DNA of 42,945 nt from Singulisphaera sp. (GTDB lineage: Bacteria > Planctomycetota > Planctomycetia > Isosphaerales > Isosphaeraceae), in the NCBI GenBank assembly GCA_027451445.1, contig DAIDJG010000350.1, forward strand, positions 1 through 42,945, given 5' to 3'. This document shows, in pieces, positions 20,380 through 31,013 of this stretch (positions are counted from its first letter, which is position 1; every line of letters starts with the position of its first letter). The position numbers were made by a program, and so were the translations under genes. The notes under the pieces were generated by a model. It ran no database searches, was not told the origin of the DNA, and saw nothing but the letters and a program-made list of their open reading frames with translations.

Positions 20380-21060
20380 TCAATCCAAGGGACGCAGCCA
20401 GGGCTTGGCGAGCGGCGATTCACGACCGGTGGACCAATCGCGGTAGCCGGGTCCGACGGTCATGCCTCCTGGTCCGAACATGCCGGGAATGGAGCTCATG
20501 TAACTGTGGTTCCCCGTTGAAGTGGAATTCGTTCCCGAGCTCGTGTGCTCGTAGTAGCCGTAGCCTTCGTAACCGAGGCCGTAGACGTAGCGCGGGACCG
20601 AGGGGCTTCCGCCTTGCGGAGGCGCCGGCGTCGAGACGAGCTCCAGGGGTGTGGTGAAGCTGGCCGTGGACTCAGAGGAATCGGCAAGACCGCTGATCTC
20701 GAAAGTCACGGTACCGCCGGTCGATGGAGCTTTCTCCAGACCGATGCCGACGTCGAGATACCCATTCTCTGCGCGAAGTGGGCGCGAGAACCAGGGCTTG
20801 GACGAATTGGGGTGGTAGAAGGTGGCGGTCCCAGTGAGCCGTGCGGTATTCAGGGCTGCCCCGGCCTTGTCCTGAACGAAAACCCTCACCCCTGTCGGAT
20901 AAACGAACACCTCGAACTGGTGCTGCGCCGTCTTCGCCAGATGCCCGCCCCGCGCGGACTTGACCGATTGGACGGCCTCCTGAGCGTCGATGCGGCCAAC
21001 GGCCCAAAGACTGGTCGCGACCATGGCCGCGAGCGCAAGAAAACCGAATACCCGTCGCAT
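20380..21060 (-). CDS. Exported protein, paralogue of the neighbouring YHS-like-domain protein
   Basis: The start at 21060 is preceded by GAGG close to the ATG; upstream frame extension lacks protein character. The 226-residue product has a signal peptide ending GRIDA (about residue 26). Residues about 37-150 share a domain with the product of 21760-22473: GGHLAKTAQHQFEVFVYP here against GGTLEKTQHHQFEVVFTE there, and an identical LTGTATFYHPNS. The shared region ends with a beta strand rich in Ser/Thr. The C-terminal 75 residues differ: a Gly/Tyr/Ser-rich segment (VYGLGYEGYGYYEHTSSG) and no Cys motif. The family function is unknown; its placement beside a metal-efflux operon suggests a periplasmic role linked to metal. 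Confidence 0.8.
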   Translation of the reverse strand: MRRVFGFLALAAMVATSLWAVGRIDAQEAVQSVKSARGGHLAKTAQHQFEVFVYPTGVRVFVQDKAGAALNTARLTGTATFYHPNSSKPWFSRPLRAENGYLDVGIGLEKAPSTGGTVTFEISGLADSSESTASFTTPLELVSTPAPPQGGSPSVPRYVYGLGYEGYGYYEHTSSGTNSTSTGNHSYMSSIPGMFGPGGMTVGPGYRDWSTGRESPLAKPWLRPLD

Positions 21061-21273
21061 TGTCCTCACCTCACTTTGTTGGGAAAATGTTCCGTTTCGT
21101 TCCCAGTGCGAAGGTGAGCCCTCCATCGCGGGCCGGGGACAAAACCCTACCGACTTTTGACCGCCCAAGGCGGATTCGGCTGTTGCAGAATCGAATCACG
21201 AGTCATCAGAAGTGCCCCTGGCCGTTGCCAGCCGAGATCGGCCGCCGAACGGTCTGTCGTGATGAGGCGCAAC

Positions 21274-21759: not shown

Positions 21760-22473
21760 TTACTCGTTCTTGGGTGCTGCCGGGGCTGTGGGTTTGCCGA
21801 AGTATCGGTCCGGGTCGGCCGTGACTGCCCTCAGGCACGACTGACAGCAGAGGAAGACGCTTCGCTCGCCGCGCGTGACCTTGATCGGCGTTCCCATGGA
21901 GCCAAGAGACCCACCGCTGACCTTGCACACGCGCTGCGCACTAATGGCAGCTTGGTCAGCACGCGTGGCCCGCGCATAGGTAATCGCCGCGGGAGCCGGC
22001 CGCACGGCAGGCGGTGGCGCCTGAGCGAGGGTAAAGGGCACGGTGAACGACACATCGGGCTCCGTCGATTCCGCCAGGTCCTTGATCTGAAAGGTGACTT
22101 TCGCACCGGTGATCGGGACCTTGCTCAGACCGACCCGCACGCCGAGCGCAGGGGACGCTTGGCCGGGAGTCGCGGGTGCAGGCTGAAGCGGGCGATTGAA
22201 CCACGGATCGGGCGAGTTGGGGTGATAGAACGTCGCCGTCCCTGTGAGTTTGGAGGCGTCAAGCGGTTTGCCGTCGATCGTGAACGGATAGACGTTGAGA
22301 CCATGCTCGGTGAAAACGACTTCGAATTGATGATGTTGAGTCTTCTCGAGCGTTCCGCCATGCGCTGCGGCTGGTCGCAGCGGATCGGCAAACGCCGTTG
22401 TCGGTACGGCGGATCCGAGCCCGAGCGACGAAACGATGCCACAGGCAACGATGTGCGTCTTCACGAAATTCAT
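21760..22473 (-). CDS. Exported protein with C-terminal YHS/TRASH-like Cys module
   Basis: The ATG at 22473 gives 237 residues and a signal peptide ending TTAFA; an ATG 24 bases upstream is also possible. Residues about 36-165 form the domain shared with the product of 20380-21060 (GGTLEKTQHHQFEVV, LTGTATFYHPNS, PWFNRPL). A Pro/Ala linker leads to a Cys module at about 185-230: VCKVSGGSLGSMGTPIKV, then VFLCCQSCLRAV and PDRYFGK. The same pattern, C-x-V-...-LGSMG-...-CC-x2-C-...-P-x-x-Y, occurs twice in the adaptor of this operon. It resembles YHS/TRASH metal-binding domains. The start follows the pump gene's stop codon by 84 bases. A periplasmic metal chaperone or sensor role is an inference. 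Confidence 0.85.
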   Translation of the reverse strand: MNFVKTHIVACGIVSSLGLGSAVPTTAFADPLRPAAAHGGTLEKTQHHQFEVVFTEHGLNVYPFTIDGKPLDASKLTGTATFYHPNSPDPWFNRPLQPAPATPGQASPALGVRVGLSKVPITGAKVTFQIKDLAESTEPDVSFTVPFTLAQAPPPAVRPAPAAITYARATRADQAAISAQRVCKVSGGSLGSMGTPIKVTRGERSVFLCCQSCLRAVTADPDRYFGKPTAPAAPKNE

Positions 22474-22556
22474 CACTTGTGCCAAACTCCCATGCAAAGG
22501 CCAGAGTCGGGTCGCCCGAGACGTTCGGGTGCCTGGTCAAAGTTGACGTCAGTGAA

Positions 22557-25500
22557 TTAATGCGCCTCCGATCGGTCATTAGGAGCGGGCGAGGTCGCCG
22601 CCTGGGACACCGCGACCGGCCGGTGTCGTCGCCCTGAGCTGACGTACTCAGCCCATAGGTTCACCCGGTGCAGCTTGGCCCAGCGCCGTTTCTGCACGGC
22701 GAAGTACAGTACGGGCAAAAACACGTCGATCACTTCGTCGGCAATGAGCAGTCCGCCCAGCACGGGCGCCGCCATCGGCCGGATCACCTCCGCGCCCACG
22801 CCGCTGGCCCAGAGCATCGGAGCGATGGAGATAATCGCTGCGCCTTCCGTCAGCAACTTGGGTCGCAATCGATGGATGGCCCCTTCAAGGATCGCCTGCC
22901 GCAACTCCGCGATCGAGCCAATCCGCTCCAGGCCTCCACGTTCTTCGATGGCCTCGTGCAGGTAAACCAGCATCACGACACCGGTCTCCACCGCCATGCC
23001 GAAGCATGCGATGTACCCGACCTGCACGGCCACGCTGAAGTTGAAGCCGAAGAGCCACTGGAAGATCGCGCCACCCGCCAGTGCGCCGAGCACGCTTATC
23101 ATCATCAGCAGAGCGTCGATCCAGCTCTTGTGCGTGATGTACAGGATCAGCGCGATCAGGGCGATGACCGCGGGGAAGATGATCCGCAGCGTCTTGTTGG
23201 CGCGGACCTGGTGCTCGAACGTACCGGTCCATTCGAGGTACATGCCCGGCGGCAGGGTCTTCAAGATCTTGTCAGCGACGATCTGCTGCGCTTCTTCGAC
23301 GAAACCGACCTCGTCGCGGTTCTGAACGCGAAGCTGAATGTAGGAACGGAGCAGGCCGTTCTCGCTCTTGATCATCGACGGCCCTTCGACGACGCGGATA
23401 TCCGCGACCGCCGCCAGCGGAATTTGCAGCGGCGGACCCTGGTCCTTTGAGCCGGCCGAAGGCAGCGCGTTACCCATCGCTCCCATCCCGCCCATGCCTC
23501 CGCTCGTCGCAGCACTCGCCGCCATGCCTGGTGCCGACACGAGGATCCCCTTGAGCGCCTCGACATCGTCGCGGTAATCGCGACCGTAACGGACGCGGAC
23601 CGGATAGCGCTCGCGACCCTCGACGGTCATCGTCAGCGGCCGCCCACCCATCGCGACCTCGACAACATCCTGGATGTCGCCGATGTTAATGCCGTATCGG
23701 GCGGCCTTCTTGCGGTTGATCTTGATCTCCACATAGCCCTTGCCGACGACCTGATCGGGGAATACATCCGCTGCTCCGCGTACCCCGCGCAGGACTGTTG
23801 CGATGTCCTGACTGACGCGCTGGATGTCGTCGAGCTTGGAGCCGAAGACCTTGACGGCCACCGGCAGGCGCACGCCGGTGGACAGCATTTCGATCCGGTT
23901 GGCGATCGGCTGGGTGAAGCTGTTCCCCCAGCCTGGCATCTGCAAGGCGGTGCTCATTCCCTCGACGAGGTCGGTCTTCGTCTTCTTCCAGAGCAAGAGC
24001 CGATCCCCGAACGGCTTATCCAGCGCCGCTCGCAACGAAGCCAACTCCTCCGAGGCCGGGTCTCGCGCGAGCAACTTGCGCTCGCGGCCGAGCTTGACCA
24101 GCTCTTCGAGGGCGGCCCAGTCGGCGGCCCCGACGGCTCGGTCGAACAGCTCCCAGTTGAGCGACTTCATTTGCTCCTTGAGCCGCCGTGTGTGATCGGC
24201 TTCGAGATGATCGCTGATCTTGGTGAAGAGCGTCGGCTTGGTGAACCCAAGTACGTCGCCCGCGACCGAAGTGATCCGCTCGGTGACTGTGGGCTGCGGC
24301 GTGAGCAAGTCCGGGCGGTTGCGGAGTACTCCCCGATCGACGAGCGTCTTGGCCGCCGCGGTGACCAGGTCGCCGATGTCGTCGGAAAGCACCTGGACGG
24401 CCAGTCGGTCGCCGTAGGTCTTCGCCAGCGAGTCGATCACCGCCGCACGTTCCTCGGACGTCGGTTTGCGAGCAATGCTCGCGGGATCGACCTGTGCGAG
24501 CAAGGTGTCGATCGCTTCGCCGATGAGTGCGCGGCCGAGCTCGGGACGAAATTCCGTCAGGCGCGCGACGGCCATGTCGCGCAGGATCTCATCGACGCTA
24601 CTCGCAACGGTCATTGCCGCTTCGTTGATGAGTGCTTCACGCGCCTCTTCGAGGGCGTGCGCTTCTTGCGTGTCCATCGAGGTCGGGCGTTTGAGCAGTC
24701 CCTTGGCCTCGAGCGTGGTCAACACGACCCGCGTCTGGGCCACGGCGTCATCGAACTTGAGCTTCCGTTTGGGCCAGACCTCGTGATCGCGCAGGTTGAT
24801 GACGGTCTCGATCATGTCGAGCGGCGCAGCGTCCGTGGGGGTCTCCGCGCGGCCCGCCTTGCCGACGACCTGCCAGACTTCCGGGAAGCCGCGCAGCACC
24901 TCGTCGCGCACGCGCAGGTCCCGCTCCGCCTGGGCGATTGACGCGCGTGGAACCGTGGTCGGCATGTCCATCAGACTCTGTTCGTCCAGGTCCGGCATGA
25001 ACTCCCGTCCGAGCTTCGTCGAGGCCACATAACCCAGGCCGAGGATGATGACGAACAGCCAGCAGACCAGCGTCGTCCGTTCCATCAGCCAGGCGAGCAT
25101 CGGCTTGAAAATCTCGATCATGGTCCGAACGATCCAGTTTTCGTCTTCGGACTTGATGCGGCCCTTGAGGAAGATCGGGATCAGGGCCGGCACCAGCGTG
25201 ATCGACAGCAGCGCCACGCCGACGAGCGCAAAGGTCTTCGTATACGCCAGAGGATGGAACATCTTCCCTTCGCGGCCCGAGAGCGCGAACACCGGCAGGA
25301 ACGAGAGAATCGTGATCAGGACGGAGAAGAAGATCGGCCGTCCGACCGTTCGGCATGCCCGGATCACGATGTCGGTTGTGTCGCCTCGAACGCGCTCGTG
25401 GCCGAAGTGGCGGGTCAGGTGATGAGCGGCGTTTTCGCCCATAACCACAGCCTGGTCGATCAGGATGCCGACGCTGATCGAAATCCCCGCCAGGCTCATG

Positions 25501-26660
25501 ATGTTCGACGACATCCCGAACAGCCGCATCATCAGGAAGCTGAAGAGAATCGCCATCGGCAGCGTGACCGCGACGACGAAGGCGTTGCCGACATGGCCCA
25601 TCACCAGCAAGATCGCGATCGTGCAGACGATCAGCTCCTCCTTGACCGTGCCGCTGACAGTTTCGAGCGCCTTGTGAATCAGCGGGCTCCGCTCGTAGAA
25701 CGGGATGATCCGCACGCCTTCGGGTAGCCCGGCCTGGAGGGTCGAGATCTTTTCCTTGATGCGGCGTGTCACCTCCAGGGGGTTCTCGCCGTAGCGCATC
25801 AACACGACGCCGCCGACCACTTCCTTACCGTCTTTCTCCAGCACGCTGCGTCGGAACGCAGGGCCAACCTGGACGGTTCCCAGCATCCCGACATTGATTG
25901 GGGTCCCGTTGTTGCGCTCGGCAACGACCGTTTCGCGAATGTCGTCGATCGACTCGATCCAGCCGACGGAACGGATCAGGAATTCGGCATTTCCCTGGTG
26001 GACGACTCTCCCGCCCACGGACGAGTTCGACCGGGCGACGGCCGAGTAAACCTCGCCCAGGCTGATGCCGTAGGCACGCAGCTTGTTGGGGTCGAGGTCG
26101 ATCTGATACTCCTTGGGAGCGCCGCCGACGCTGGCGACCTCGGCGACGCCGGGCACGCTGTTGAGCTGGTAGCGGACGTACCAGTCCTGGATCGAGCGCA
26201 GCTCGCTGAGGTTCTTGTCGCCCCCTTCGACCGTGTACCAGAAGATCTGACCAACGGCCGTGGCATCCGGTGCGAGGTAAGGGATCACACCTTGCGGCAG
26301 AAAAGTCGAGGCGATGGAGAGTCGCTCGAGCACGCGCTGGCGGGCGAAGTAGTAGTCGGTCTCGTCCTTGAAGATGATCGTGATCATCGAGAAGTTGAAT
26401 TCGCTCGACGAGCGCACTACCTTCACGCCGGCCAGCCCCTGCAGGTTGACCGAGAGCGGGTAGGTGATCTGGTCTTCGATTTCCTGGGGGCTGCGGCCCA
26501 TCCAGTCGGTGAAGACGATGACCTGATTCTCGGAGAGGTCGGGAATCGCGTCCACGGGCATCGTCAGCATCGCGCGGAAACCTGCGACCCCAAGCACCAG
26601 CGACGCCAGGATGACGAGGAAACGATTGCGGATCGACCACTCGATGATCGACTCAATCAT
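22557..26660 (-). CDS. cusA: CusA-like heavy-metal RND efflux pump with a 260-residue insertion
   Basis: An inner-membrane proton-driven RND transporter. The start MIESIIEWSIRNRFLVI at 26660 is the canonical CusA/CzcA N-terminus; frame upstream of it is not pump-like. The three methionines of the E. coli CusA metal pathway (573, 623, 672) have counterparts here: Met566 in MDMPTTV, Met616 in LDMIET and Met925 in RIEMLSTG, which argues for Cu(I)/Ag(I). A membrane aspartate in GILIDQAVVMGEN fits the proton relay. At 1367 residues it is about 320 longer than CusA. The spacing from Met616 to Met925 is 309 instead of 49, so about 260 helical, hydrophilic residues (about 633-890) are inserted in the periplasmic porter region. 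A Met/Gly-rich insert occurs near 1043-1069. The adaptor gene ends 19 bases upstream. Confidence 0.95.
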   Translation of the reverse strand: MIESIIEWSIRNRFLVILASLVLGVAGFRAMLTMPVDAIPDLSENQVIVFTDWMGRSPQEIEDQITYPLSVNLQGLAGVKVVRSSSEFNFSMITIIFKDETDYYFARQRVLERLSIASTFLPQGVIPYLAPDATAVGQIFWYTVEGGDKNLSELRSIQDWYVRYQLNSVPGVAEVASVGGAPKEYQIDLDPNKLRAYGISLGEVYSAVARSNSSVGGRVVHQGNAEFLIRSVGWIESIDDIRETVVAERNNGTPINVGMLGTVQVGPAFRRSVLEKDGKEVVGGVVLMRYGENPLEVTRRIKEKISTLQAGLPEGVRIIPFYERSPLIHKALETVSGTVKEELIVCTIAILLVMGHVGNAFVVAVTLPMAILFSFLMMRLFGMSSNIMSLAGISISVGILIDQAVVMGENAAHHLTRHFGHERVRGDTTDIVIRACRTVGRPIFFSVLITILSFLPVFALSGREGKMFHPLAYTKTFALVGVALLSITLVPALIPIFLKGRIKSEDENWIVRTMIEIFKPMLAWLMERTTLVCWLFVIILGLGYVASTKLGREFMPDLDEQSLMDMPTTVPRASIAQAERDLRVRDEVLRGFPEVWQVVGKAGRAETPTDAAPLDMIETVINLRDHEVWPKRKLKFDDAVAQTRVVLTTLEAKGLLKRPTSMDTQEAHALEEAREALINEAAMTVASSVDEILRDMAVARLTEFRPELGRALIGEAIDTLLAQVDPASIARKPTSEERAAVIDSLAKTYGDRLAVQVLSDDIGDLVTAAAKTLVDRGVLRNRPDLLTPQPTVTERITSVAGDVLGFTKPTLFTKISDHLEADHTRRLKEQMKSLNWELFDRAVGAADWAALEELVKLGRERKLLARDPASEELASLRAALDKPFGDRLLLWKKTKTDLVEGMSTALQMPGWGNSFTQPIANRIEMLSTGVRLPVAVKVFGSKLDDIQRVSQDIATVLRGVRGAADVFPDQVVGKGYVEIKINRKKAARYGINIGDIQDVVEVAMGGRPLTMTVEGRERYPVRVRYGRDYRDDVEALKGILVSAPGMAASAATSGGMGGMGAMGNALPSAGSKDQGPPLQIPLAAVADIRVVEGPSMIKSENGLLRSYIQLRVQNRDEVGFVEEAQQIVADKILKTLPPGMYLEWTGTFEHQVRANKTLRIIFPAVIALIALILYITHKSWIDALLMMISVLGALAGGAIFQWLFGFNFSVAVQVGYIACFGMAVETGVVMLVYLHEAIEERGGLERIGSIAELRQAILEGAIHRLRPKLLTEGAAIISIAPMLWASGVGAEVIRPMAAPVLGGLLIADEVIDVFLPVLYFAVQKRRWAKLHRVNLWAEYVSSGRRHRPVAVSQAATSPAPNDRSEAH

Positions 26661-26679
26661 GATCCGTACTCCGTTCGGC

Positions 26680-28563
26680 TCAATGCCGGTGTGCGCTTGG
26701 GGTCGGGGCGGCCGCGGAGCGGGTGGGCTCGACATCGGGCTTGGGAGGCGTCTTTTCTTCGGCGGGCGCCGGAGCGGCACCGGGGTTGATGCGGCTTTCG
26801 GCGTCAATCAGGAACGCGCCGCTCTCCGCCACGCGTTCACCGGGGGCAAGGCCGTTGATCACCGGAAAACGGTCGCCGATGCGAGGCCCGAGGGAGACTT
26901 CGCGCCCCTCGAAGACGCCGGGCTCGCTCTCGATGTACACGACCTTGCGGTTCCCCGTGTCGACGACCGCCGATTCCGGGACCGTGAGCACCCCGTCACG
27001 CGGCGGAGGCGCCAGGCGAGCGAGGTATCGGGCGGGCGTCGCCTTCAGCTTGGGCGGGCACGCTGCACAGCAGGTCCACACTTTCCGCCCCTCGACATCA
27101 ACGGCGATGGGATCGCCCATGGAACCCAGCTTGAGGCTGGTCACCGGGCAGATCTTTTGATCCGCAGCGTTGACCGTTTTCGGCGTAACGGCGCGGGTCG
27201 CCTTTGGTAGTTTCGCCAGGTACTTGGCAGGATTCGCCTTCACTTTAGGAGGACAAGCATCGCAGCACAGAAGGATCTTCCGCCCCTCGATCTCCATCGA
27301 GACGGGCGGTCCCATCGTGCCAAGCTCTGCGCTGGTCACCGGACAGAGTTTCTGCTCATGCGCGTCCACCTCTCCGACACGGCCTTCGGCGGCCCGGGCC
27401 TGGTATTCCGGGGTCTCTGCGATGGGCGTCTTGAGGGTGACGGTGGCGAACATGCCGGGGCGGAGCCGATGTCCGGGATTCTCCAGCGCATAGCGGACCT
27501 CGACTGTACGTGTCGCCGGATCCAGGTGTGGCTGGATGAACTCGACCTTGCCATCGAAGGTCTTGCCCGGATAGGCCTCCACGGTGGCCTCAACAGGCTG
27601 ACCCATATGGATCAATCCCATTTGATGCTCATAGATCTGGGCCTGAACCCAGACGGTCTGCAGGTCGGCCACTTCAAACATCGCAAAGCCTTCCTGCACC
27701 TCCTGACCCGCAACGACATTCTTCTTGAATACGTGACCGGTGGTCGGCGACAGGATCGGGAAGGTAAAGTCGGTCTTGCCCGTCTTGAGGATCTCGTCGA
27801 TCTGGCCCTGCGTGATCCCCCAGCGCTTGAGCTTCTCGGCCGAGGCATGGACCATCTCGCGCCGGTCGGCGATAAGAGAACGCCCCACGGCGGTCGTCGG
27901 TTGGATCGAGGACTCGGCACGCCGAGCGGAACTGAGCAGTTCATGAATCGCTTGCGACAACTCGGGGCTATATAACTCGGCCAGCGTCTGTCCCTCAGCG
28001 ACGTCCTGACCCGTGAAGTTCACGTACAGCTTCTCGACCCGCGTCTTGCCGGGCACCTTGGACACGATATTCGCAATGGCCCGCTCGTCGAACGCGACGT
28101 ACCCAACGGTGGAGAGCGTCTGTGTGAGTGGCGCGTAGCGGATTTCGGTCGTCTTGATTCCCGCTTGTCGCACGCGGAGCGGCGTCAGCTCAACCCAGGC
28201 GGTCACACCCGGCGGCAATGTCGCCTTCTCTCCCTTCTTCCGTTTGGCCAACGGCATACCGCAAATCGGGCACGTTCCCTGAGCATCCTGAACGACTTGC
28301 GGATGCATCGGGCAGTAGAACTCAATGCCCGACGCGGTGGCGTGCGCCATCGCGGCCGGCCGCATGAGTTTGTCGTAGCGGTTCCAGAGGTAGTCCCAGT
28401 ACGCGAACACGAGCGCCGTGATCGCCATGAGGGCGATGAATCGCAGCCGAAGCTCAACGACCTTGACGACCAGACGAACTTTCTGCCAGCGAGTGAGCGG
28501 AACTTCTTGCACGACGTCAGCGGAGAGACGCGCAAGGTCTTCCGGAGGACCGTTTGGAGACAT
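26680..28563 (-). CDS. CusB-like periplasmic adaptor with N-terminal HMBD and two inserted Cys modules
   Basis: The ATG at 28563 follows GGGAGAG. The 627-residue protein has one membrane segment (about 41-60) and then a heavy-metal-binding domain, YCPMHPQVV with Cys84, and CPICGM with Cys98 and Cys101. The membrane-fusion core spans about 120-380: VEKLYVNFTGQDVAEGQTL is the barrel-sandwich half-motif and WVQAQIYEHQMGLI the beta-barrel strand. Inserted before the C-terminal proximal domain are two tandem copies of a module, CPVTSAELGTMGPP...CCDAC (Cys407, 433, 434, 437) and CPVTSLKLGSMGDP...CCAAC (Cys472, 498, 499, 502). The adaptor resumes at about 523 (DGVLTVPESAVVDTGNRKVV). The tail ends HRH. 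It joins pump and outer-membrane channel; the extra modules suggest added metal capture. Confidence 0.95.
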   Translation of the reverse strand: MSPNGPPEDLARLSADVVQEVPLTRWQKVRLVVKVVELRLRFIALMAITALVFAYWDYLWNRYDKLMRPAAMAHATASGIEFYCPMHPQVVQDAQGTCPICGMPLAKRKKGEKATLPPGVTAWVELTPLRVRQAGIKTTEIRYAPLTQTLSTVGYVAFDERAIANIVSKVPGKTRVEKLYVNFTGQDVAEGQTLAELYSPELSQAIHELLSSARRAESSIQPTTAVGRSLIADRREMVHASAEKLKRWGITQGQIDEILKTGKTDFTFPILSPTTGHVFKKNVVAGQEVQEGFAMFEVADLQTVWVQAQIYEHQMGLIHMGQPVEATVEAYPGKTFDGKVEFIQPHLDPATRTVEVRYALENPGHRLRPGMFATVTLKTPIAETPEYQARAAEGRVGEVDAHEQKLCPVTSAELGTMGPPVSMEIEGRKILLCCDACPPKVKANPAKYLAKLPKATRAVTPKTVNAADQKICPVTSLKLGSMGDPIAVDVEGRKVWTCCAACPPKLKATPARYLARLAPPPRDGVLTVPESAVVDTGNRKVVYIESEPGVFEGREVSLGPRIGDRFPVINGLAPGERVAESGAFLIDAESRINPGAAPAPAEEKTPPKPDVEPTRSAAAPTPSAHRH

Positions 28564-29203: not shown

Positions 29204-29513
29204 TACACCGAGAGAGTAACCACCCTGCTTCCAATCACCCTAAAGTATAGCCGACTTACGATACCGGGCAAGCCCAGTGCTCGTAAACACGCGTCGTTAC
29301 GATCATGCTATCGATGTTGTCAGGAACGCCCTCCGATCGAGATCATCCGGCATCTCGAGTCGACCCCCCAAAACGGAAAAACCCGCGCAAATCGGACAAT
29401 CCTTCAAAGTGGCCGAGGCGTACCTGCCGATTCATCCTGCGGGCTCATTGTATCGGCATCGCCGGCTGCGCGGAGGGTTCGCGCAATGCGGCGGTTCTGC
29501 CAAGAGGCCGGCG
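29204..29513. other. Divergent promoter region between the Cys-rich and TolC-like genes
   Basis: 310 bases shared by the efflux operon (minus) and the outer-membrane channel gene (plus). A minus-strand promoter candidate is described at 29244-29271. I saw no clear plus-strand promoter and no CueR- or CzcR-like operator. The plus-strand frame is open from 29277 but lacks a start signal before 29514. Confidence 0.4.
29244..29271 (-). promoter_or_regulatory. Candidate sigma-70 promoter of the metal-efflux operon
   Basis: On the minus strand TTGCCC (29271-29266) is followed after 16 bases by TATACT (29249-29244), five of six matches to the -10 consensus. It lies 41 bases upstream of the Cys-rich gene's start. 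The 16-base spacer is unlike the 19-base spacer of MerR/CueR-regulated promoters. Confidence 0.4.
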
Positions 29514-31013
29514 ATGAAACGACAATGGTCCCACGCCCTCACTGCGTGTTTCCTCTATGGGCTCAGCGGCTGCGCTCATACATCCCCGATTCGGAACGTT
29601 GCCGAACGCGATCCCGACGTTCGGCCAGCCACATACCAGAGCGAAATACCTCCTCACCCCGAGCAGCCGATGGCGGCGCTGGTAGACGCGGCCGTCGCTC
29701 CGCCCGAGCTGGCGGGACCACAGTCGGTAGACGTCTTCATCCGTCGAGCGCTCGCCGAGAACCGGACGGTCCAGGCAGCCTATCACAACGTTGAATCGCT
29801 CCGGCACCGTATTCCGCAGGTTACCACGCTCGATGATCCCGTCGCCTCCAACGCCATTTTTCCCATCCCAGCGGCTGCGCCGCAGTATTCGTTGATGGGT
29901 TACAATCCCTACAACGTCACTCTGGCCCAACAGTATCCGTGGTTCGGCACCCTTCGTCTCCGAGGCGAGGCCGCTGCGCACGACGTGCAGGTCGCGCTGG
30001 CCGAGCTGGCCGCCGCCCAGCTCGATACCGTCGCTGCCGTAAAGCGGTTCTATTACAACCTTTACGTGAGCCAGAAGACCGAGGACATCCTGGTCGAGAA
30101 CCGCAAGATCCTCGAAGACTTTCGGGGAATCGCCCGTGAACGGCTCAAGACTGGCGGCACGCAGCAGGACGTCATCCGGGCCGAGGTCTTGATCAGCGAG
30201 CTCGACCGCGACCTGGCCAATAACAAACAGTCGGTCGCGGCGGCACGCGCGGCGCTTGCACGACAGTTGCACGTTAGCCCGGAAACGGAGTTCAGAACTC
30301 TACCCGAGCTAGCTCTCGCCGGCGTCCCCGGCGAGTTCGACCGCCTCTATCAGCTCGCGCTCACGGCTCGACCGGAACTCCAGGGGCGACTCGCCGCTGT
30401 CGTGCGCGACGAGAAGGCGGTCGAGCTCGCGACGAAGCGGTTCTATCCCAACATCACGTTGGGAGTGACGTACATGGACATGGAGAAGACGAACGCGACG
30501 ACGCCCAAGACGGCCGGCGGCATGCCGAATATTGGCCTGTTCGTCGCCTTCAATCTGCCGGTCTACCGCGATAAATATCGCGCGGGGGTGTGCGAAGCTC
30601 AGGAGCGCGCCCTCGCCGATGCGAAGCTCTATGAAGCTCAGCGGGATGAAGCCTCCAGCGAGATTCAGGAGTTGATGTTGCAGGTGCGGACCCAGCAAAA
30701 CGTGCTGGCCTTGCTCCGCGACAGCATTCTCCCGCGCACCCGATCGGCGTTCGACCTGGCCCGGAGCGACTACGCCAAGAGCAACGTCGATTACGCGACG
30801 GTCCAGTCGGCGCTGCGAGAGGTGCTCCAGGTCGAGTTGCAGATCGCCCAGATCGAAGCTGAACTCGGCAAGGCGATCGCCTCCCTGGAACGGGCGGTCG
30901 GGTCGGAAATCAACGAGCATCCGCCGGCGCCCACCACAACCGGAAGACCGGCCTCTCCCCCGTCCCCGCCCCCTGCGACGCCTGGTCCTTTCCGTCCCGC
31001 CGCTTTGCCGTGA
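29514..31013 (+). CDS. TolC/CusC-family outer-membrane efflux lipoprotein
   Basis: The ATG at 29514 has AGAGG six bases upstream and gives 499 residues. A signal peptide with lipobox LSGC places the lipidated cysteine at residue 20, as in CusC. The two long outer-membrane-efflux repeats are visible. The first runs from about 80 with ENRTVQAAYHNVESLR and the periplasmic helix AVKRFYYNLYVSQKTEDILV. The second starts at about 280 with LTARPELQGRLAAVVRDEKA and continues with FYPNITLGVTYMDM and FNLPVYRDKYRA. A helix rich in QLIEAELGKA-like heptads ends the barrel region, and the tail is Pro/Thr-rich. It should form the trimeric channel used by the pump and adaptor encoded divergently. The gene starts about 310 bases from the operon's first gene. 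Confidence 0.92.
   Translation: MKRQWSHALTACFLYGLSGCAHTSPIRNVAERDPDVRPATYQSEIPPHPEQPMAALVDAAVAPPELAGPQSVDVFIRRALAENRTVQAAYHNVESLRHRIPQVTTLDDPVASNAIFPIPAAAPQYSLMGYNPYNVTLAQQYPWFGTLRLRGEAAAHDVQVALAELAAAQLDTVAAVKRFYYNLYVSQKTEDILVENRKILEDFRGIARERLKTGGTQQDVIRAEVLISELDRDLANNKQSVAAARAALARQLHVSPETEFRTLPELALAGVPGEFDRLYQLALTARPELQGRLAAVVRDEKAVELATKRFYPNITLGVTYMDMEKTNATTPKTAGGMPNIGLFVAFNLPVYRDKYRAGVCEAQERALADAKLYEAQRDEASSEIQELMLQVRTQQNVLALLRDSILPRTRSAFDLARSDYAKSNVDYATVQSALREVLQVELQIAQIEAELGKAIASLERAVGSEINEHPPAPTTTGRPASPPSPPPATPGPFRPAALP

Follow-up and report, generated by a model that had tools for sequence, protein, structure and literature searches.

Within the window, that is, the whole 42,945-nucleotide stretch of Singulisphaera sp. 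DNA that was analysed, a CusA-type HME-RND permease is encoded on the minus strand at 22557-26807 (1416 residues when counted from TTG), and all the features of this pump given below lie on the same strand. The true start is likely to be the ATG at 26660, which gives a protein of 1367 residues; the pumps of the same clade align from the same Met. For comparison with E. coli CusA, residues were numbered with Met50 of the pump aligned to Met1 of CusA (Met50 numbering). The pump ORF scored 998.8 bits against TIGR00914 (HME-RND, CusA/CzcA), above the curated cut-off of 701.45, and its closest solved relative was E. coli CusA (3k07; phmmer E 7e-240). The alignment of the two proteins is unbroken except at two sites, one occupied by a large insert and the other by a smaller Gly/Met-rich insertion.

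Based on this alignment, the methionines equivalent to CusA M573, M623 (within beta3 of PC1) and M672 were located at 24963-24965, 24813-24815 and 23886-23888, respectively, corresponding to residues 566, 616 and 925 in Met50 numbering, while the equivalent of E625 is E618. An earlier reading made from the sequence alone (the sequence-only reading) had given the spacings as 50 residues for 573-623 and 309 residues for 623-672, and both values are correct. The residues M573, M623, E625 and M672 were retained by every insert-bearing pump whose sequence covers these sites. As judged from its sequence, the pump is a bona fide HME-RND transporter of the CusA type (Met triad, Cu(I)/Ag(I)-like), for which the transport of Cu(I)/Ag(I) is predicted.

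The cognate adaptor and outer-membrane factor are encoded near the pump. The CusB-type periplasmic adaptor (26680-28563, minus strand; Pfam HlyD_D23, E 6e-73) includes an HMBD module (E 2e-10) and two YHS-like CC..C modules, the latter assigned by motif reading of the sequence (CPVT...LG.MG...CC..C). The outer-membrane factor of TolC/CusC type is divergently encoded at 29277-31013 on the plus strand (Pfam OEP, E 2e-32; TIGR01844/01845 below cut-off). Downstream of the pump, a small protein with a YHS-like C-terminal module is encoded at 21760-22497 (minus strand), and synteny places it beside the pump also in many Isosphaeraceae. This protein and a second small one, encoded at 20380-21168, are apparently related, both carrying HGG.L.KT..HQFEV and one ending in the YHS-like module. 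Neither matched any family (Pfam and NCBIfam for the former), and both are possible copper-operon accessory proteins.

The smaller insertion is a Gly/Ala/Met-rich segment of 35 residues (1094-1128; 23424-23528), apparently disordered, which aligns at about 791-794 of CusA and by homology would be a loop of the docking domain. The loop is 21-79 residues long in most full-length insert-bearers and usually 4 residues in insert-free pumps, and its Met content is 7.6% vs 2.9% overall. It is short in three insert-bearers (L032, L034 and L035) and in the paralogues with a 184-204-residue insert. The co-occurrence of loop and insert, which is a correlation only, hints at a further change in the periplasmic part within this lineage.

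Position of the insert in the porter region

The large insert, a domain of 265 residues (ORF residues 680-944), was mapped at 23976-24770. The sequence-only reading had placed a large insertion of a CusA-like pump at 23988-24776, which is borne out to within a few residues. The alignment to CusA chain 3k07 breaks between query 679/chain 645 and query 945/chain 651, so that the 265 residues of the pump stand where E. coli CusA has about five. In both composition and codon-position GC, the insert is the same as its flanks.

In a predicted model of 1200 residues of the pump, the elements of PC1 appear in the order alpha1 (575-589), beta2 (595-605), beta3 (614-623), the insert from 631 and alpha2 (895-905), and the assignment of these elements, which comes from a weak whole-chain model, is consistent with the alignment to CusA. 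By model and sequence alike, the predicted splice point is between beta3 and alpha2 of the porter subdomain PC1. This site matches none of the reviewed hotspots for insertion into RND porter domains. The large domains of RND porters are inserted at the beta2-beta3 tip and small beta-hairpins at a second point, beta1-alpha1, while the porter insertion of SecDF sits after alpha2 (PMC8277102, section 5.7.6.4 for the two hotspots).

The insert was originally described as lying between two metal-site methionines and next to the metal path. The first is true of the sequence and only putative in space. The adaptor contacts named along with the metal path are possible. The second is not supported, because in the model the equivalent of M623 (residue 616) is near the start of beta3 while the insert departs past the opposite end of the strand, 14 residues on, and carries no conserved Cys or His. 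The transport route through the Met triad and E625 would be unchanged from CusA.

The position in sequence between two Mets of the triad, together with the Gly/Met-rich loop that usually accompanies the insert in the same pumps, could be taken as a sign of a metal-handling domain, which would bind or sense Cu(I)/Ag(I) and pass it on to the triad close by. This is quite improbable, since the splice point lies beyond the end of beta3 that is remote from the triad, and in the insert only 1.5% of the residues are Met and 0.1% Cys. In the alignment of 34 members, no conserved Cys or His was found, and M53 is the sole near-invariant Met. Given this composition, carriage of metal by the insert is unlikely.

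Fold and internal duplication

AlphaFold2 prediction of the insert on the 34-member alignment gave an all-helical structure (pLDDT 92.5, pTM 0.83) with helices at 6-22, 34-93, 105-125, 129-145, 162-174, 181-230 and 240-257. The same helices appeared in the 1200-residue model of the pump and were among its best-scored parts; the quality of the whole model is low (pTM 0.40), too low for the insert to be placed on the pump, and neither orientation nor contacts are derivable from it. The hydrophilic, helical and periplasmic character that the sequence-only reading attributed to this part of the porter region is supported.

The two halves of the insert, residues 1-127 (24390-24770) and 128-265 (23976-24389), align with each other by profile comparison (hhalign, E 3e-8, score 44), the highest score with shuffled columns being 9.7. 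The quarters correspond in the same order, the second with the fourth (E 1.6e-7) and the first with the third (E 3e-4). The profiles indicate that the insert is an internal duplication of a unit of about 127 residues. Each of the two copies would consist of a helix, a G-x-L-x-R-x-P turn, a long helix, a turn and a helix.

The invariant residues of the insert are R2, D60, R64, G175, LNWE, D210 and LW, and its length is about 250-257 residues in most members. The conserved residues cluster in the middle of the two long helices. The 60-residue helix (insert 34-93; 24492-24671) carries the invariant D60 and R64 together with the near-invariant M53, R70 and E73, while the 50-residue helix (insert 181-230; 24081-24230) carries the invariant LNWE (L204-N205-W206-E207) and D210. 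The most conserved stretch of all is the signature LNWELFDRA at 24135-24161.

No family match for the insert was obtained in Pfam and NCBIfam searches with either the insert or the whole pump, and a PDB sequence search with the insert gave no significant match. Foldseek comparison of the insert model with the PDB and viral libraries gave no trustworthy match, and the best Z of VIA-align, 6.8, is within noise for helical models.

From the helix lengths and the duplication, we infer an elongated rod that is capped in a similar way at either end. A rod of this kind might reach the neighbouring protomer, thereby stabilising the trimer or coupling the opening of the cleft between protomers, with no outside partner involved. 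The opening of the PC1/PC2 cleft is the main motion of CusA, the protomers of which are otherwise independent (PMC8092243), and the 60- and 50-residue helices, which if straight would measure about 90 and 75 Angstrom, could bridge the distance between protomers, the duplication implying similar caps at both rod ends. The distal cap, however, could equally bind another protein, and we consider an internal brace or allosteric element of the trimer rather unlikely.

Distribution and evolution of the insert family

Searched with the insert alone, 15 of 294 genomes of the phylum gave matches. With a profile of the 34 insert members, which was used for both the order and the phylum searches, the insert was detected in 38 of 45 genomes of the same order (Isosphaeraceae), or 22 of 26 when those of good quality are considered, and in 21 of 392 genomes across Planctomycetota. 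The listed matches all lie within a long open frame, mostly of 1300-1760 residues and often shorter on short contigs. A scan of 84,980 species genomes for LNWE[LI][QFE]D[RQ], the one search that reached beyond Planctomycetota, gave 36 confirmed loci, all within this phylum, including Singulisphaera, Paludisphaera, Aquisphaera and Tautonia and, among them, the complete chromosome of S. acidiphila (NC_019892). The insert was not found on the plasmids of PLSDB. Outside Isosphaeraceae, other planctomycetes carry the insert only scatteredly. The profile search that the sequence-only reading had proposed for the segment by itself thus shows that it exists in other planctomycete pumps, never outside a pump-sized frame.

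The window comes from an assembly of 622 contigs, and an assembly or frameshift artefact was therefore considered. This candidate was refuted by the occurrence of the same domain in the complete Singulisphaera acidiphila chromosome and in dozens of other assemblies, and its probability is practically nil. Dozens of independent genomes have the insert at this very position; it is therefore genuine, being due neither to chance nor to assembly, and the assembly artefact that the sequence-only reading had named as a possible refutation is ruled out. An intein or another parasitic in-frame element would likewise be large and in frame. For this insert, such an origin is hardly credible: Pfam gave no intein/Hint or nuclease family, the insert occupies a variable loop and forms one clade that follows the host phylogeny, and it was never seen outside the pump-sized frame.

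In a core-only tree (FastTree), the pumps with this insert family formed one clade (48 of 48), and in core-only IQ-TREE all 41 of 41 insert-bearers fell in one clade with an ultrafast bootstrap of 100 and a long stem. The phylogeny indicates that the insert was gained once, by the ancestor of one planctomycete clade of CusA-type pumps. The genome of the window itself encodes a second pump with a related, shorter insert of 186 residues, plus several insert-free CusA-type pumps. The second pump belongs to a paralogous subfamily, L102:531-4688 (contig C566 of the same genome), L066:9029-13162 and L173:1254-5378, in which the insert of 186-204 residues retains the outer parts without the middle.

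Over 81 pump sequences, the length at the insertion site was 5 (E. coli), 15-45, 83-119 or 184-359 residues. A second insert family, of 112-119 residues, occupies the same PC1 site in L144, L148, L196, L197 and L198, which form a separate clade (bootstrap 99); in L196 it is doubled in tandem to 256 residues. No homology between the two families was detected by profile comparison. The presence of two insert families at one site of PC1 marks this site as a hotspot in planctomycete pumps. At another position, the region linking TM6 and TM7 is 110-146 residues long, instead of the usual about 51, in other planctomycete pumps, namely L149-L151, L153-L155, L157, L158 and L166-L168.

The dN/dS ratio was about 0.1-0.3 for the insert and about 0.02-0.1 for the core, the insert evolving at several times the rate of the core. 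By these ratios, the insert is under purifying selection, constrained yet peripheral, which is what a functional surface domain at the periphery would show. The faster evolution would also fit a weakly constrained decoration, that is, an expandable loop that has drifted to a large size and is folded with little function, and so would the very different lengths accepted at the site and the second insert family without detectable similarity at the same place. The purifying selection, the invariant residues, the near-constant length across the whole family and the high-confidence fold all speak against this explanation, which we regard as improbable.

The partners of the pump were also compared. 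The operon partners of insert-bearers are intact, consisting of a CusB-type adaptor and usually an outer-membrane factor. HMBD modules are present also in the adaptors of insert-free relatives. YHS-like CC..C motifs were found in the adaptors of many, though not all, insert-bearers; the adaptors examined from insert-free pumps had none, a difference confounded by kinship. A tight link between the insert and a particular type of adaptor was tested and rejected, as no adaptor feature tracks the insert cleanly.

Proposed role and comparison with known systems

Taken together, the insert probably serves the pump as an additional arm, for structure or docking, and not for the binding of metal. In CusA, the working motion is that of PC2 away from PC1 (PMC8092243), so that a rod fixed to PC1 would be a natural strut or docking arm. 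The rod would project from PC1, the wall of the cleft that PC2 leaves as it swings out, and would act as a strut or docking platform that holds a partner in the periplasm. Possible partners are the metal-binding adaptor (HMBD plus YHS-like modules), a copper-delivery module or protein, and the neighbouring protomer. Where the rod sits on the trimer, that it serves for docking and which partner it holds are what we infer rather than observe directly. The proposal that the insert is an accessory domain, gained once and kept by selection as a PC1-borne strut or docking platform for a periplasmic partner, stands in our judgement an even chance of being right. A more novel reading, offered tentatively and with a chance somewhat short of even, is that a new, internally duplicated, all-helical domain at an unreported beta3-alpha2 point of PC1 serves as an extra assembly or regulatory arm, an Isosphaeraceae-wide innovation in copper export that is used together with the Met-rich loop of the docking domain.

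Gram-negative bacteria export metals and drugs mainly through RND pumps, the periplasmic architecture of which has been thought fixed apart from a few insertion hotspots. As this conserved domain of 250-265 residues illustrates, a tripartite pump can acquire an accessory arm while its metal site is unchanged. As it is removable as a unit, it offers a testable handle on the coupling between adaptor, transporter and metal delivery.

The sequence-only reading considered the insertion undescribed in CusA and named, as a finding against this, that it be both common and already described. It is indeed carried by almost every Isosphaeraceae genome, and other planctomycetes have it here and there; the open full-text literature, to which most subscription journals do not belong, gave no earlier description. 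The protein is a CusA-type pump that carries, at a new point of insertion, an accessory domain apparently not described before.

The pump shares with E. coli CusA the whole core, M573/M623/M672 and E625, and the adaptor and outer-membrane partners, and differs from it at the splice point, where CusA has only those few residues, and in the Gly/Met-rich loop, which CusA lacks. The P1-head of SecDF, likewise an added periplasmic domain, is carried by the first PD domain and engages a partner, but it is spliced after alpha2 (PMC8277102). In HpnN, an HAE-3 hopanoid exporter, helical domains are spliced into the porter domains PD3 and PD4 as in the present pump, but the inserts are at beta2-beta3 and the protein is a dimeric lipid transporter (PMC8277102). 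A likeness is also found in MmpL7, a mycobacterial RND lipid exporter, in which an all-helical domain of about 230 residues without known relatives is located within the RND porter domain PD2 and has been reported as a protein docking platform (PMC8427324). In that MmpL-type protein the domain interrupts PD2 at beta2-beta3, whereas in the present metal pump, of the trimeric CusA type, the insertion falls between beta3 and alpha2 of PC1. By analogy, the PD2 insert of MmpL7 would be the best precedent for the pump insert as a docking arm.
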